Shown piece after piece: positions 731 through 60,251 of a stretch of DNA of 64,000 bases (positions are counted from its first letter, which is position 1; each line of letters opens with the position of its first letter). The notes under the pieces were generated by a model that was not told the DNA's origin, made no database searches, and was given only the letters and a program-made list of their open reading frames with translations. A program made the translations under genes and the position numbers. Origin of the DNA: Desulfamplus magnetovallimortis (GTDB taxonomy: Bacteria; Desulfobacterota; Desulfobacteria; Desulfobacterales; Desulfobacteraceae); the NCBI RefSeq assembly GCF_900170035.1, contig NZ_LT828551.1:1811-65810 (forward strand), given 5' to 3'.

Positions 731-2191
731 ATGACAACCTTAAATCCAGAATACCTCCAATCAGAACTCCCAGCAATCCAACTGTTTGAGAAACTGGGAT
801 ATACTTACCAAAACGGCTCAACCAACGATGAGCGTTCATCCATCAACGATGTTATACTGGAAAACCGCTTAAAAGATGCCATTAAACGGTTAAATCCCTG
901 GCTGAACGAGAATAATGTCAATAACGCCTTTAAGGAAATCACCTCTGTATCTGCCACATCATTTATCGAAGCAAATGAGCACATCCATAAACTCATCAGC
1001 ACACAGGAATATACCCCAAAACAGATTATAGACGGTAAAGAGACCTACAGGGGCGTTTCTTATATCGACTTCATCAACATCGAGAACAATGACTTTCTCA
1101 TTGTCAATCAGATGAAGTTCAAGGGTAAGGAAAAGAACTCAATCCCAGATCTTGCTGTCTTTGTAAATGGCCTGCCCCTGGCCGTCATAGAGTGTAAATC
1201 TCCCACTGCCCAGGGTGCTTTTTCCGATTGTGTCAATGACCTTATTTATTATCAGATAAACAGTGAAAAACTGTTCAGATACAATCAGGTATGTGTCGGT
1301 ATTTACAAGGTTGGTGGTAAATACGGGGCTGTCGGGGCCAAAGAAGTTCATTATCAGCATTACAAATCAGATGAGACCCAAGACATTGAAGCATTACTGG
1401 AAAGAGACCCTACACATCAAGACATCCTCATCTATAACCTCTTTGAAAAAGAGAAATTCCTTGATTTAATACGCAACTTTGTCATATTGTCAATGGCCAT
1501 TAACAATCCCATACAGGCCACCTCCGTCAAACACTTAAAGAAACTTTTGAAAGATGATTACGGCAAAACCATCACCACCACCATACAGAAGTTTCAGGAG
1601 GTTGATGAAGATGGGAATATCATCAAAGTCTCCAAAGAGAAGATAGAAGCAGATGGTAAGCATGGGTTTAACAGGCCAGAAAAGAAAAGCGTATCTCACA
1701 ACTTGAGTTGTTTGAAGAGTTGGATAAGATTCAGCAGAAACTCGTCAATGAGAGCAATGAAGCCACTGCTATGGGATTTACTTCCCAGCGTGAATTTGCT
1801 GTATTCAAGACCTTAGAGAATGTTATAGACGGCGATGCCAAGGATATAACTCATACTATCTTTAAGGAACTAAATGGTGAACTTTCCATAGCGGGCTGGT
1901 GGGATAGAGCACAGGTTATGAAATCAATGCGTGTGAAAATAAAGGGTGTTCTAAAAGGAAAAGTTGAGGTAAAAGAGGCACAAAAATTGGCATCCTTCAT
2001 ATCAGCTCAAAAGTAGTTTACACTTTTCGGAAAATTTTGAACCATGATTAAAGGATTTAAGGATTAACATGATGAATAATCAAGAAAATCCCTTAATCAT
2101 GAAAATCATGGTTCAGAAAAGTGTAAACCGATAAATGAAAGATGCCCAAAAATTAACTGTATCTCTACTTGACCTCATTAAAAGGAATTAG
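731..2191 (+). pseudogene. hsdR: Type I restriction endonuclease HsdR, internally deleted, frameshifted and interrupted
   Basis: The N-terminal nuclease domain is preserved to about residue 255, including the PD-(D/E)xK core IPDLAVFVNGLPLAVIECKS. After FLDLIRNFVI the frame jumps to NPIQATSVKHLKKLLKDDYG, which in intact HsdR follows the Walker A helicase region. The ATP-binding segment is therefore missing. After KVSKEKIEADGKHGF a second jump removes the DEAH motif and the rest of the motor. A 1-base frameshift near 1680-1690 then separates this from the C-terminal helical domain (LELFEELDKIQQKL up to KVEVKEAQKL). The last 13 or so codons (TVSLLDLIKRN, stop 2189-2191) are cut off by element A1. 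The protein cannot be an active translocase. No hsdM or hsdS is visible; they may lie left of the window. Confidence 0.9.
1989..2146. mobile_element. MITE-like element, family A copy 1 (inserted in hsdR)
   Basis: This 158-bp element is bounded by the inverted ends GGCATCCTTCAT and ATGAAAGATGCC (11 of 12 match). It is flanked by perfect 8-bp direct repeats CAAAAATT at 1981-1988 and 2147-2154. Removing the element and one direct repeat restores the hsdR reading frame EAQKLTVSLLDLIKRN, so it is a true insertion into coding sequence. It is longer than other copies because the centre holds a second inverted repeat (around 2036-2116, AACCATGATT facing AATCATGGTT). No open reading frame is present. 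Confidence 0.88.
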
Positions 2192-2194
2192 AAT

Positions 2195-2890
2195 TTGCCC
2201 GTTGCCCAGTACGGAACCACAGAAATTCATTACTCCCACATCATCGACACATCGCTAAAACATGGCTACATCACCGTGGGTTTTTATGAAGGGGTGATTT
2301 TGAAAACTCCACCTATTGAGGATGATAAGGCAGATAAACTTATACTCAGTAAAGGCCGATGGATTGTGGAGAAAATTAAACTGGTGGAGCGTATCCCCCA
2401 GGGAGAAATTATTACAGGCTCAAGGCTTTTGTACCTTGGTAAGCGGTATTATGTTAAGATTACCAAAGACACTACTGTTAAAGATGCCAAGGTTCAATTC
2501 ACTCACTCCAGATTTAACATCACCATCAACCCGGATGTAGAAGATAGACAATCTGCCATAGACAAAGCACTGGAGACATTCTCACGGGATAAGGCTAAAG
2601 AAAAAATATTACCCCTTGTCAAGAATTGGAGTGAAACAATGGGACTTATCCCCAACTCCGTCAGTTTAAGGAAACTTTCTAAAAGGTGGGGAAGTTGTAC
2701 CAACGACAATGACATCCTTATCAATTTTGATGCCGTCAAACTGCCATTCAGCCTCATAGACTATATTGTTATCCACGAATTGACCCATATCAAACATAAA
2801 GACCACTCTAAAGACTTCTACCGAGAACTCGCCAAAGATGCCCCTGATTGGGAAGATATGGATGAAAGACTTGGGGATATAAAATTATAG
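2195..2890 (+). CDS. YgjP/SprT-like zinc metallopeptidase (DUF45)
   Basis: This 231-residue protein has the DUF45/YgjP signature WGSCTNDNDILINF followed by the zinc motif HELTHIKHKDHS, which contains HExxH. A TTG start at 2195 is preceded by AAAGG at 2181, and no ATG lies nearby. It starts 3 bp after the original hsdR stop. DUF45 genes are often found next to type I restriction genes, so it was probably co-transcribed with hsdR. The substrate is unknown for the family. All motifs are intact although hsdR has decayed, so it may be retained for its own sake. Confidence 0.85.
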   Translation: MPVAQYGTTEIHYSHIIDTSLKHGYITVGFYEGVILKTPPIEDDKADKLILSKGRWIVEKIKLVERIPQGEIITGSRLLYLGKRYYVKITKDTTVKDAKVQFTHSRFNITINPDVEDRQSAIDKALETFSRDKAKEKILPLVKNWSETMGLIPNSVSLRKLSKRWGSCTNDNDILINFDAVKLPFSLIDYIVIHELTHIKHKDHSKDFYRELAKDAPDWEDMDERLGDIKL

Positions 2891-8842: not shown

Positions 8843-8949
8843 GGCATGTTTCATTTTCCGGTTTACGCTTTCTTGAAGCATAGCCCCCATTTTTCGAGCA
8901 GCTCACCCCAAAAAGTGTAAAGTACTTTTGAGTTGATATGAAAAATGTC
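8843..8949. mobile_element. MITE-like element, family A copy 2
   Basis: This 107-bp copy starts GGCATGTTTCATTTTCC and ends GATATGAAAAATGTC. The inner conserved motifs are GTTTACGCTTTCT and AAGTGTAAAGTACTTTTG. The flanks ATAATTAA (8835-8842) and AAAATTAA (8950-8957) match at 7 of 8 positions, consistent with an aged 8-bp target duplication. It lies 15 bp after the ettA stop. Confidence 0.78.
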
Positions 8950-12651: not shown

Positions 12652-12729
12652 CTCAAAATAGACATCTTATTGCTTTTTCAGAAGTTATTGCATTTGTCTG
12701 AATCAGGATAAAAAGGATGTTCAGGATAG
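12652..12729 (+). mobile_element. Truncated family B element (B1)
   Basis: CTCAAAATAGACATCTTATT through CAGGATAG matches the left 80 bp of the 174-bp elements at 17641 and 40321. The right half is missing and the family C array begins at once. It is nested inside family H. Confidence 0.8.
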
Positions 12730-17222: not shown

Positions 17223-17470
17223 AGTTATCTCCCTTTTTCCTAAGCAGTGATGATTCATCTATTTTTTGCAACACAGTTTCATATTAATAAATGCTATTTG
17301 TACAAAATAATCAGTTGCTTTGCAACAGATAACACCTGTTTTTTTATATCTTGAAAATATTTGGCCTGTTCGAGTAAAGATTGCCTGAACTGAATACTTA
17401 ACGCTGCAAATAGTTGCTCCCTTTTTTGTTGTCTTTTGTTTCCCTGATGTTTATATTAAATATTAATAAT

Positions 17471-17554
17471 AACGTACATGGCGGATTACCGCCACAATCG
17501 AAGGGATGAAAGTCATTTTCAAAACAGGCTGTTACGGAGACTTTCATATAAAAT
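17471..17554 (+). repeat. Family E repeat copy 1
   Basis: AACGTACATGGCGGATTACC through GAGACTTTCATATAAAAT. The family recurs at 24161-24243 (reverse), 27117-27265, 49624-49830 and 54445-54528. The unit begins with a short hairpin (GGCGGAT-ACCGCC) and holds the block ATGAAAGTC...GACTTTCAT. The following stretch 17555-17640 ends in GACTTTCATACTTCGTTGT, another E/F fragment. Confidence 0.8.
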
Positions 17555-17640
17555 ATGAGGGCGCTCTTTGCCGCTTTACGCTTTCAGGAAAAACCTGTTC
17601 TTTAGAGAAACTCAATCCAGGACTTTCATACTTCGTTGTA

Positions 17641-17814
17641 CTCAAAATCGACATCTTATTGCTTTTTCAGAAGTTATTTCAGTTGTCTGAACCAGGATAA
17701 CCAGGATGGATAGGATGCTCAGGATAGAAAATCTTGCCTTATCTTGTTAATCTTGGGAATCCTGATTCAGACAGTGTTGACAAGGCTTACAAGATCATAG
17801 GTGTCGATTTTGAA
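17641..17814 (+). mobile_element. MITE-like element, family B copy 2
   Basis: This 174-bp element has inverted ends CTCAAAATCGACATC and GGTGTCGATTTTGAA. It has long internal complementarity (TCTGAACCAGGATAACCAGG facing CCTGATTCAGA). It is nearly identical to 40321-40494. TGTA flanks both ends, possibly part of a 4-6 bp duplication. It interrupts an E/F-type repeat fragment. Confidence 0.82.
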
Positions 17815-20844: not shown

Positions 20845-20949
20845 GGCATCTTTCATTTGCCAGTTTACACTTTTCCGAACAGAAGCCCGTTTTTAGAAGC
20901 TCCTGTTCCGGAAAGTGTAAAGTACTTTCTGTATGATATGAAGAATGCC
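20845..20949. mobile_element. MITE-like element, family A copy 3
   Basis: This 105-bp element has ends GGCATCTTTCATTTGCC and GATATGAAGAATGCC and inner inverted arms ACTTTTCCGAACAG and CTGTTCCGGAAAGT. Perfect 8-bp duplications TGAATTTA lie at 20837-20844 and 20950-20957. It is 12 bp beyond the stop of the FeS oxidoreductase gene. Confidence 0.92.
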
Positions 20950-23281: not shown

Positions 23282-23388
23282 GACATCCTTACATATAATA
23301 CAGAAAGTACTTTACACTTTCCGGAACAGTATCCTCGAAAAACGGTCATTCTGTTCGGGAAAGTGTAAACTGGGAAATGAAAGATGCC
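23282..23388. mobile_element. MITE-like element, family A copy 4
   Basis: A 107-bp copy in reverse orientation to copy 3. Its ends are GACATCCTTACATATAATAC and AAATGAAAGATGCC, with perfect 8-bp duplications TGAAAAAC (23274-23281 and 23389-23396). It lies in the spacer between tetR and the oxidoreductase gene. The rest of 23028-23418 shows no gene. Confidence 0.92.
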
Positions 23389-24094: not shown

Positions 24095-24243
24095 TACTTT
24101 ACCGTGAAAATACCCTATCATTTTCATGATCGGGGGTTGCCGGAGTCCGTCCATGAAGGTTTTTATATGAAAGTCTCGGTAGCAGCCTGTTTTAAAAACG
24201 ACTTTCACTCCTTAGATTGTGGCAGGTATCCGCCATGTACGTT
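24095..24243 (-). repeat. Family C unit followed by family E copy 2
   Basis: TTTACCGTGAAAATACCC through CATGATCGGGGGTTGCCGG is one family C unit in reverse. TTTTTATATGAAAGTCTCGG through CCGCCATGTACGTT (24161-24243) is a family E unit in reverse. The rest of 24022-24553 is A/T-rich without a recognisable gene. Confidence 0.7.
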
Positions 24244-24553
24244 AATCAAAAACATAAGGATAAAACAATCACACCAGAAACCTCAAATGAATTTATATTC
24301 ATACACTATCAAATTTTTTTTCCATGTGTCAAGATGATATTTTTATTTTCATCGAAAAAAAAGTACTGCAAAAAAATCAATTAAAATCAGTGCATTAAAA
24401 CACATATTACAAACAGGATAGTTTAAATAAAATGAACAATCAACCCGAATAGTGCTTATGAGTATCAATTCATTTAAAAGCAAGTCCTTGATTTTTTTCC
24501 TGTTCCATGCAAAAACTTGAACAATAATAAAATATAGAATCAAGGAGGATAAC

Positions 24554-27116: not shown

Positions 27117-27265
27117 GTCTCTAAAGGACTTTCATGCTTCGTTGTGGCAGATGGATCTTCCATGGCCGTTACATGAAAGCCTCAGTAATATCAATGCCTC
27201 AGTAAGTTGCTGTTTTTTTTAAACATCTTTCATCTCTTCGATTTTTGCGGTGATCCGCCATGTAA
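27117..27265 (-). repeat. Diverged family E/F repeats
   Basis: GGACTTTCATGCTTCGTTGTGG and CATGAAAGCCTCAGTAA, then CATCTTTCATCTCTTCGATTT and GGTGATCCGCCATGTAAATT, follow the family E scheme in reverse with substitutions. Beyond it, 27266-27600 is unremarkable A/T-rich DNA. Confidence 0.55.
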
Positions 27266-27612
27266 ATTATAGTGGATATAAATTCAAATTTAATGATCAG
27301 AAGAGGACGAAATCAGGCCATGGGTTATCAGATACCTTAAAAGTTACTCTCCTCAGCTTAACAAAAATATTCTGCTATCACTTTCCATCACCTCCAAATC
27401 TACATCTACTCACCAAAAATCTTTCCCAACCTTATCAAATAGATTTAATGATTAACATGATCTTAAAATCATGGTAAATATTATTATTTCACAAATCAAT
27501 CTGCCGATCTTAAACAAAATAGATCTCCTGATTTGCAAATTTCATTTGCCGTTTTGCAACGTCTGAAAAAACATGTACATTTTTCGGGAATATCAATCCA
27601 GACAGCTTAAAT

Positions 27613-40021: not shown

Positions 40022-40320
40022 CTTGATATCCTGGCAACTATATCTGCTCGATTTTCCACCAAGAAGCTCCATAAATTTAATAACTCAATTCTTATAACCA
40101 TCTGAAAAGTAAAAAGTCAAGATATGCATCAAAAATGGAGAGATCAAAATGGAGTACATTCATTGACATTGCAAAGATTATCCTGTACTTAATTCTGTTA
40201 ATATACTGTTTTTTTCTTGTTCAATTTCAATCAACTTAGGAACAGAGTCTAAATAACTTGCCCATACGCCTCAATTCCAGCACTCTTTTTATGGCTGTAG
40301 AGAGGAAGTTTGGTTAAGTT

Positions 40321-40494
40321 CTCAAAATCAACATCTTATTGCTTTTTCAGAAGTTATTGCCATTGTCTGAACCAGGATAACCAGGATGAATAGGATGCTA
40401 AGGATAGATAATCCTGCCTTATCCTGTTAATCTTGAGCATTCTGATTCAGACAGTGTTGACAAGGCTTACAAGACCATAGGTGTCGACTTTGAG
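40321..40494 (+). mobile_element. MITE-like element, family B copy 3
   Basis: This 174-bp element has ends CTCAAAATCAACATC and GGTGTCGACTTTGAG, flanked by 6-bp direct repeats TAAGTT (40315-40320 and 40495-40500). It ends 34 bp before the formate dehydrogenase start, so it lies in that gene's 5' region. Confidence 0.88.
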
Positions 40495-49623: not shown

Positions 49624-49830
49624 CCTGCCACAACGAAGCATGAAAGCCCTGAAAAAAACCTTGAAATACGGGGACTTTCTTATAAAACGTACATGGCTGA
49701 TGATAGCCACAATCGAAAAGATGAAAGTCGTTTTTAAAAACAGGCTGTTACCGAGACTTTCATATAAAAACGTACAGGCGGGTAGCCACCACAATAGAAG
49801 CGTTGAAAGCCATTTAAAAAAAAGCTGTTA
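49624..49830 (+). repeat. Family E repeats, about two and a half units
   Basis: CACAACGAAGCATGAAAGCCC is a partial unit. AAACGTACATGGCTGATG through CGAGACTTTCATATAAAA is a full unit, and AACGTACAGGCGGGTAGCC through GCTGTTACGGGAACC is a diverged unit. An H-type end (CACTTTTTACAAGGCCATCAA) follows at 49922-49942. These fill the spacer 49559-49974. Confidence 0.78.
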
Positions 49831-54427: not shown

Positions 54428-54444
54428 GATCTGAATCTCAATAT

Positions 54445-54528
54445 AACGTACATGGCGGATGCCCGCCACAATCGAAGGAATGAAAGTTGTTCTAAAAACA
54501 GCTATTTATTGAGACTATCATATAAAAT
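54445..54528 (+). repeat. Family E repeat copy 5
   Basis: AACGTACATGGCGGATGCCC through GAGACTATCATATAAAAT is the clearest full-length family E unit. It lies between the terminator and the folD stop. Confidence 0.85.
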
Positions 54529-54593
54529 AAAATCAGCATCTTAAGACTTAAAACACTAATTATCGACTTTTTTACACATTCAACTAAATTGCT

Positions 54594-57669: not shown

Positions 57670-57770
57670 GGCATACTCCACTCTACACTTTAAAAAGGGC
57701 TTTTCTCCTTATAATTAGTATTCTTGATCAAAAAAGTGTAAACTACTTTTATGATCATATAAAGGGTGCC
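57670..57770. mobile_element. Family A copy 5 (aged)
   Basis: GGCATACTCCACTCTACACTTT ... AAAAGTGTAAACTACTTTTA ... AAAGGGTGCC keeps the family A ends and inner arms, but no target duplication is visible. A more decayed relative starts at 58286 (GGCATCCTAAAAAACAG). Confidence 0.7.
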
Positions 57771-58697: not shown

Positions 58698-60251
58698 GTG
58701 GGATTTGAAATTACTAAAGAATCCTATGCCGGCGCAATCAAAGGTATTACCATTGGAAAAGGTGACAATACCCTCACAATTGGTGCCGAATCATGTTATC
58801 CTTTTTACCAGTTTGAAGGAGACATGCCAAACAAACCCGTCATCGCCATGGAAATATGGGACATGGAACCCCAGGACTGGCCAGCAAGTGCCCTGGCACC
58901 TTTTAAGGATGTTATATCAGATCCGGCTGCCTGGGCAAAAAAATGTGTGGAAGAATTTGGGGCACAAATTATTGTTCTTCAGTTGAAAAGTATTGATCCC
59001 AATGATCAGGACGCTTCTCCAGAAGATGCTGCCGCAACTGTCCAGAAAGTCATTTCAGCCATCAATGTCCCTCTGGTTGTCTGGGGATGCACCTCACCTG
59101 CCAAAGACGAAGCTGTTCTTAAAAAAATCGCAGAGGTATGCCAGGGAGAAAACCTGATTCTCGGCCCTGTGGAGGAGAAGAACTACAAAGGTATTGGCGC
59201 TGCTGCTATGGGATATGGCCACACAGTGATATCCTCATCTCCCATTGATGTCAACCTTGCCAAGCAGGTTAACATTCTTCTTGAAAACCTCGGAGTTCCC
59301 TTAAACAAGGTAATTGTTGATCCCACAACCGGTGGTCTAGGGTATGGTCTTGAATACACCTACTCTGTTATGGAGCGTCTAACAATGGCTGCCATGACCC
59401 AGGGTGACGATAAACTCCAGAACCCCATTATAAACAACCTTGCAAACGAAGTATGGAAATGCAAGGAGGCCAAACAGACCGCAGAAGAGGCACCTGAACT
59501 TGGTGACCCTGAACGTCGTGCCATACTGATGGAAGCTGTTGGTGCTGTATCCTACTTTATGGCTGGTTCCAATATCATGATAATGCGCCATCCAGAAGCA
59601 ATCAAGCTTGCAAAAGCCTTTATTGAACTTATCAGCAATGGCGGCTCTGCAGCAGATATTGCTCCCATCGCCAAACGCCTTGACGATGTTGAGATTGACT
59701 TTGCAGCTCTTGCACCAGCTCCGGATCTTTCAATTGAAGAGGCCAAGGCTGCGGCTCCTGCTGCCAAACCTGCTGCTCCAAAAGCAGAAGCTCCAAAACC
59801 TGCTGCCGCTGCCGCTCCTGCTGCTCCAAAGGCTGAAGCTGCTCCTGCACCAAAAGCTGAAGCTGCTCCTGCTGTTGATGCAAAGGCACAGGCTGAAGCT
59901 GAAGCAAAAGCAAAAGCTGAGGCAGAAGCAAAGGCAAAGGCTGATGCAGAAGCAAAAGCAAAAGCTGACGCTGCTGCCAAGGTAAAAGCTGAAGCCGACG
60001 CAAAAGCAAAAGCTGAAGCTGATGCAAAAGCCAAAGTTGAAGCAGAGAAAAAAGCTGCATCTGATGCTGCTGCCAAAATTGAGGCTGAAGAGCAGGCTCT
60101 CAGGGAAAAACGCGCTGCGGAACAGGCAAAACACAAGACAGCACAATCTTCGGCACCTGCTGCCCCTGTAAGCATGACCCCTGCCAAAGAGCAGTTGTCG
60201 GAACTTGACAAGATTCTGAAGGGTCTTGATAGAGTACACAAGAGAGTGTAA
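58698..60251 (+). CDS. acsD: Corrinoid/FeS protein delta subunit of CODH/ACS, with long C-terminal helical tail
   Basis: A 517-residue protein starting with GTG after AAGGAGG. Residues 1-345 or so match the AcsD/CdhD subunit of the corrinoid iron-sulfur protein: GITIGKGDNTLTIGAESCYP, LQLKSIDPNDQDASPEDAAA, LGPVEEKNYKGIGAAAMGYG and VIVDPTTGGLGYGLEYTYSV. The protein carries methyl groups between methyl-THF and acetyl-CoA synthase. Residues about 345-485 are an unusual tail: Ala/Pro/Lys-rich, then a repeating KAEAEAKAKA helix like TolA. It ends with a more normal helix (LSELDKILKGLDRVHKRV). Family members are usually about 310 residues. The acsA gene follows 74 bp later. Confidence 0.92.
   Translation: MGFEITKESYAGAIKGITIGKGDNTLTIGAESCYPFYQFEGDMPNKPVIAMEIWDMEPQDWPASALAPFKDVISDPAAWAKKCVEEFGAQIIVLQLKSIDPNDQDASPEDAAATVQKVISAINVPLVVWGCTSPAKDEAVLKKIAEVCQGENLILGPVEEKNYKGIGAAAMGYGHTVISSSPIDVNLAKQVNILLENLGVPLNKVIVDPTTGGLGYGLEYTYSVMERLTMAAMTQGDDKLQNPIINNLANEVWKCKEAKQTAEEAPELGDPERRAILMEAVGAVSYFMAGSNIMIMRHPEAIKLAKAFIELISNGGSAADIAPIAKRLDDVEIDFAALAPAPDLSIEEAKAAAPAAKPAAPKAEAPKPAAAAAPAAPKAEAAPAPKAEAAPAVDAKAQAEAEAKAKAEAEAKAKADAEAKAKADAAAKVKAEADAKAKAEADAKAKVEAEKKAASDAAAKIEAEEQALREKRAAEQAKHKTAQSSAPAAPVSMTPAKEQLSELDKILKGLDRVHKRV

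Follow-up and report, generated by a model that had tools for sequence, protein, structure and literature searches.

A 158-bp MITE in an hsdR pseudogene of Desulfamplus magnetovallimortis and the probable partner IS of its family

The 64,000-nucleotide stretch of the Desulfamplus magnetovallimortis genome analyzed here (the window) carries a MITE in the 3' part of an hsdR pseudogene, and this element is one of several hundred related elements in the genome. It is classified as a MITE on the basis of its 158 bp of non-coding DNA, its terminal inverted repeats, a duplication of fixed length (8 bp), its multiple copies, the existence of empty sites, and an IS with matching ends. We consider it highly probable that the element was moved in trans by an IS-encoded transposase of a putative DDE type that recognizes both end modules and makes an 8-bp staggered cut. 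The features of the window that are relevant to this analysis are compiled in Table 1.

Table 1. Coordinates of the MITE, its component parts, other family members and the surrounding genes in the window
Feature	Position	Strand	Remark
hsdR pseudogene, 5' part (HSDR_N, start of SWI2/SNF2 region)	731..1674	+	
hsdR pseudogene, 3' part (C-terminal region)	1675..2191	+	MITE inside; about 950 bp of helicase region missing ahead
Left target-site duplication CAAAAATT	1981..1988	+	Single copy in empty paralogue L335
158-bp MITE, imperfect hairpin over full length	1989..2146	+	Thirteen identical copies, that of the window included, among the own-genome DNA sampled
Left end, 39 bp, with tip GGCATCCTTCAT, a spacer of 16 bp and TTTACACTTTT as inner motif	1989..2027	+	Conserved across genera and phyla; adjoins transposase gene in relatives
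Interior palindrome GAACCATGATT...AATCATGGTTC	2028..2116	+	Subfamily-specific; unrelated interiors in other genomes and subfamilies
Right end, 30 bp: inward GGCATCTTTCAT, 7-bp spacer, TTTACACTTT	2117..2146	-	Agrees with the D. magnum IS right end at nearly all bases
Right target-site duplication CAAAAATT	2147..2154	+	Flanks element 1989-2146
YgjP-like metallopeptidase gene	2195..2890	+	Follows hsdR in window and in paralogue locus
107-bp family member	8843..8949	-	8-bp duplication with one mismatch
105-bp family member	20845..20949	-	Perfect 8-bp duplication
Decayed family member, about 106 bp	23283..23388	+	No clear duplication
Solitary left end of the MITE family	57732..57770	-	

The sequence CAAAAATT is present twice, at positions 1981-1988 and 2147-2154, and both copies are perfect and abut the element at 1989-2146, which starts with GGCATCC and ends with GATGCC. 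A first-pass annotation of this DNA had described a GGCATC-ended element of 158 bp between two copies of an 8-bp repeat and had read it as a small, non-coding mobile element; the arrangement was confirmed, and the reading is supported by the empty site and the genome-wide family reported below. With 158 bp and no ORF of its own, the element is within the range of 50 to 500 bp without coding sequence that characterizes MITEs. Its terminal inverted repeats comprise the tips GGCATCCTTCAT and GGCATCTTTCAT as well as an inner TTTACACTTT repeat. The left end is composed of the tip GGCATC(C/T)TTCAT, 16 bp and TTTACACTTTT, which holds the inner TTTACACTTT motif, whereas the right end, read inward, is composed of GGCATC(C/T)TTCAT, 7 bp and TTTACACTTT. 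At 9 bp, the difference in spacer length is about one helical turn, and it would set the left/right distinction of the ends.

As single-stranded DNA, the whole 158-bp element takes the form of a single long hairpin with imperfect pairing (-32.9 kcal/mol, z = -8.4 relative to shuffled sequences). A hairpin that spans the entire element, together with its high repetitiveness, would fit a REP-like or BIME-like palindromic repeat that is not a TIR transposon and owes its spread to a Y1 (REP-associated) transposase or to other replication-linked copying. We give this explanation almost no weight because the exact 8-bp duplications and the empty site denote insertion by a staggered cut, and because these ends are also those of a protein-coding IS. 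The REP-like repeats of Y1 transposases, which form one hairpin unit and lack a target duplication, are refuted as a model for this element by the same duplications and empty site.

Joining the flanks of the MITE over one copy of the repeat results in EAQKLTVSLLDLIKRN, with the stop codon at 2189-2191 and the TTG of the metallopeptidase gene at 2195. The empty site in an intact hsdR, for which a search had been proposed at first pass, was found in the same genome at a second hsdR-metallopeptidase locus (contig C33, locus L335). The hsdR frame at this locus has 1012 codons, its C-terminus is 91% identical to that of the window hsdR over 102 aa, and the DNA at the corresponding site reads AAAGAGGCACAAAAATTAACTGTATCT, with CAAAAATT present once and no element. 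Alignments extend through this C-terminus for the paralogue as well as for G007 and G117, two full-length HsdR homologues of 1008-1015 aa.

The window hsdR is a pseudogene apart from the MITE. With respect to the paralogue, about 950 bp are absent between positions 1674 and 1675 (about 1850-2804 in L335), the break being at a short shared TAACAG/TAA-AG sequence, and a frameshift near 1675-1708 causes the C-terminal frame to differ from the N-terminal frame. Since the full-length HsdR homologues have frames of 1008-1015 codons, the loss of about 950 bp belongs to the window copy. Removal of the MITE would thus not restore HsdR. The earlier claim that excision restores the HsdR C-terminus holds for the C-terminal frame, which becomes continuous up to its stop, but not for the gene, which stays deleted and frameshifted; the view that the element was caught in an intact hsdR is therefore too simple.

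It might be argued that the direct repeat is fortuitous, as AT-rich 8-mers recur by chance, or that the element belonged ancestrally to the 3' end of hsdR and was lost by the paralogue. At the fetched loci, however, element-length end pairs gave 58 exact 8-bp matches, as compared to 3 in shifted controls, which excludes a chance origin of the duplication. Furthermore, identical copies of the element, each bordered by a repeat of its own, occupy unrelated sites, and the paralogue and both HsdR homologues align through the C-terminus. These data refute both versions of the argument, which we regard as having a negligible probability.

We subsequently consider the family in its own genome (G000, 6.68 Mb, 108 contigs). 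When the element was used as query, full-length or nearly full-length copies made up the best 40 of 555 first-look candidates. When 2 or fewer mismatches were tolerated, AAGTAGTTTACACTTTT, the motif of the left end, was detected about 374 times genome-wide, as compared to 12 times for the reversed control. The 800 kb of contig C1 that were scanned contained 54 left and 56 right ends when up to 10 and 8 mismatches, respectively, were allowed, and none for the reversed control. The genome-wide search for GGCATC...GATGCC elements with 8-bp repeats that had been suggested earlier was productive: after deduplication, the sampled own-genome DNA contained 101 paired elements, for which pairing required at most one mismatch in the 8-bp duplication. 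The duplication was exact in 89 of them and had one mismatch in the other 12. Most of the paired elements were 104-107, 157-161 or 184 bp long, and a few were larger and nested. The duplicated 8-mers had an A+T content of 77%, compared to 66% in the flanks, and their left half was A-rich and their right half T-rich.

Thirteen 158-bp copies in the sampled DNA, including that of the window, were identical to the last base and were all located at different sites, which indicates that movement was recent. One of these copies (L014) has an N gap at one flank, which hides its duplication. The joined flanks of 33 elements, not each of which was inspected, matched contiguous DNA elsewhere in the own-genome sample. 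These matches are probable empty sites in other repeats, and a few may be contaminated by neighboring copies. The insertion, its duplication and its empty site, and likewise a multicopy family with identical recent copies, are direct observations.

An autonomous IS with matching ends was identified in Desulfonema magnum and, in the form of fragments, in the genus Desulfamplus itself. The complete chromosome of D. magnum (NZ_CP061800.1) contains 39 left ends of the family. About 18 of them belong to near-identical MITEs of 306-308 bp with perfect 8-bp duplications. The same chromosome harbors four identical copies of a 1923-bp IS (L370, 145-2067) that possesses the left and right ends of the family, with perfect 8-bp duplications in three of the four copies (CTCCGAGC, GAGAAATT and TCCGATTC) and none at the fourth. 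This IS encodes a single DDE-like protein of 533 aa, the direction of transcription leading from right end to left end. The IS and MITE of D. magnum are thus directly observed to reside together, with the same ends and the same duplication of 8 bp.

Fragments of transposase homologues were present in two Desulfamplus genomes (G002 and G008) and in G015, G095 and G096. At 8 of the 10 fragment loci, an end of the family was found in the expected position and orientation, namely, a left end after the C-terminus (n = 5) or a right end before the N-terminus (n = 3); two short G096 fragments had neither. The same transposase was seen beside the same ends in both Desulfamplus genomes. In addition, G713 contains a full-length homologue (36% identical) with a similar left end adjoining. 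All five transposase-positive relatives also contained MITEs, as compared to 28 of 97 relatives overall (hypergeometric p 0.0015, uncorrected for genome size and completeness). In most MITE-bearing genomes, many of which are incomplete drafts, no transposase was seen.

Three lines of evidence point to the D. magnum-type transposase as the likely mover: both end modules match, and not the tips alone; D. magnum harbors both the IS and the MITE, with duplications of equal length; and all transposase-positive relatives carry MITEs. This transposase is very probably the mover of the family, including the window copy, for which we infer its action, as we do the catalytic mechanism. The IS-encoded DDE-type transposase would be supplied in trans to the non-coding passenger MITE and would recognize two end modules, the GGCATC(C/T)TTCAT tip and the inner TTTACACTTT, at spacings that differ by 9 bp. 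The element would then be inserted into AT-rich DNA through an 8-bp staggered cut, which would give rise to the target duplication.

In the own genome, no transposase of this family was detected at E <= 1e-10 in the readable DNA, and 60 contigs (0.5-1.8 kb, 53 kb together) consist entirely of N. No long element was found in 800 kb of contig C1 when ends were paired up to a distance of 8 kb. The source IS has presumably been lost from this genome or is located in the unreadable small contigs, where multicopy ISs of draft assemblies commonly end up.

There is a small probability that the mover of the MITE belongs to another IS family (IS1595, ISL3, IS256, IS1 or IS4-type) and that 8-bp duplications and GG tips are shared fortuitously. 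IS1595, ISL3, IS256 and IS1 are known for duplications of about 8 bp and for GG ends, and the transposase found here is marginally similar to IS256 and ISL3. However, PF12762, PF01610, PF00872 and PF03400 had no match in the own genome, none of its six PF01609 matches was bounded by MITE ends, and the IS of D. magnum carries both end modules and not the tip alone. The PF01609 locus L066 was rejected as a partner; by inspection, it appears to bear its own tips of the TCGGACAG type.

Searches of the 533-aa-type transposase against the Pfam, NCBIfam and PHROGs profiles retrieved no family above the cut-off. For single family members, scores of 12.9-17.3 bits were obtained with the IS256 model NF033543 (cut-off 150, best E 0.0018) and of 12.3-16.6 bits with the Mutator/IS256 model PF00872 (gathering score 21, best E 0.0039), and one member scored 17.3 bits with the ISL3 model NF033550 (cut-off 180, E 0.0019). 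Sequence searches of the PDB gave no match. An alignment of the transposases (A1) revealed conserved SDEIF, (S/T)D-G and SS-VE--NS motifs, which could be the candidate D, D and E residues of an RNase H-like DDE fold. The likeness to IS256 (Mutator) and ISL3 is marginal at the profile level (E about 0.002), where it is located around the first two catalytic positions, and it includes GG tips and duplications of about 8 bp, the latter two features fitting such a kinship; in contrast, 17 bits fall far short of the 150-180 set as cut-offs by NCBIfam, and the Pfam gathering scores are not reached. We conclude that the transposase is probably a distant relative of the IS256/ISL3 kind. It represents a family for which Pfam, NCBIfam and PHROGs hold no model and which may bear a name in ISfinder; naming it would enable annotation pipelines to find further members. 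No description of this MITE/IS family was found in the literature searched.

The end modules were present in 29 of the 98 relatives searched, own genome counted, and at least 99 stretches were detected when each species was represented by one genome. Among the matches listed, most were from Desulfobacterales, across which the MITE family is very abundant, but the ends also occurred in assemblies of Achromatium, Methyloprofundus, Nitrosomonas, Campylobacteraceae and, among the Bacteroidota, Draconibacterium and Cytophagales. Many of these assemblies are metagenome bins, and single odd matches could be contamination. In other genomes, 83 paired elements were similarly flanked by 8-bp duplications (pairing allowed up to one mismatch). 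The viral contigs searched contained neither an exact match to the end patterns nor a relative of the transposase, the phages searched contained no transposase relative, and the plasmids searched gave no convincing MITE match. One distant transposase homologue, annotated as 'hypothetical protein', was found on the cyanobacterial plasmid pREC4 of Acaryochloris marina. This plasmid carries two similar copies of about 1.7 kb (L389, 1257-2960 and about 15.6-17.3 kb) that share the GGC tips GGCACTGTTCA...TGAACAAAGCC, and no target duplication was seen.

Whereas the ends are constant, the interior is not conserved between genomes, and by inspection the ends enclose unrelated hairpin or tandem repeats (L196-L294, L340-L358). 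These include TGAATCAGGATT-type palindromes (L214, L239), GTTTCAGTGTTCAG repeats (L273, L275), GTCCCTACGGGAC palindromes (L206, L270), GCTGAACCGAAGGTTTAGC hairpins (L238, L271) and CTTTGCGAAACTCTGCG repeats (L227), among others. The commonest form across the family is a basic element of 103-107 bp with a short hairpin. Within the own DNA sampled, the interior palindrome of the 158-bp element was nearly confined to places with family ends nearby; in some other genomes, a similar interior palindrome was matched, with the ends missing from the blastn match. As the interior of the 158-bp element does not represent a remnant of the IS, it lends no support to descent by internal deletion. To judge from this inspection, two routes can be envisaged, namely, capture of hairpin repeats by the ends or insertion of such repeats into the central part of an element. 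We tentatively propose, with considerable reservation, that an IS family outside the standard model libraries drives modular MITEs across phyla, the ends of which shuttle palindromic repeats of the host as the interior is repeatedly replaced. The exchangeable interiors make the acquisition of MITE cores directly testable.

Taken alone, the window copy is a textbook MITE insertion of a kind already known; what is added here is a probable partner IS family that no library model covers, the wide spread and the modular interiors. A comparable bacterial type II MITE is MITEAba12, with 113 bp, 9-bp duplications and the proposed partner ISAba12 (PMC6382973). Both kinds are short, AT-rich and non-coding, have terminal inverted repeats and target duplications, are found inside a gene and resemble an IS at their ends only. 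The present family differs in its estimated several hundred elements per genome, its several size classes, its 8-bp duplication, its bipartite ends with an asymmetric spacer and its fully variable interiors. ERIC and further palindromic, MITE-like repeats of high copy number (reviewed in PMC10969869) similarly have hundreds of copies and a hairpin structure, whereas for the present family the duplications, empty sites and partner IS are seen directly.

The window contains further repeats. Palindromic TGTCTGAA(T/C)CAGGAT repeats, which are similar to the interiors of certain MITEs from other genomes, stand alone at 12695-12728, 17640-17813 and 40320-40493. A second, unrelated intergenic family, GACTTTCATATAAAA...ACGTACATGGCGGAT..CCGCCACAATCGAAGG.., is abundant, with copies at 17460-17555, 24154-24244, 27215-27279, 49684-49776 and 54439-54529. 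Finally, a coding region includes, at 59754-60090, a long in-frame run of AKAEAEAKAKA-like repeats.
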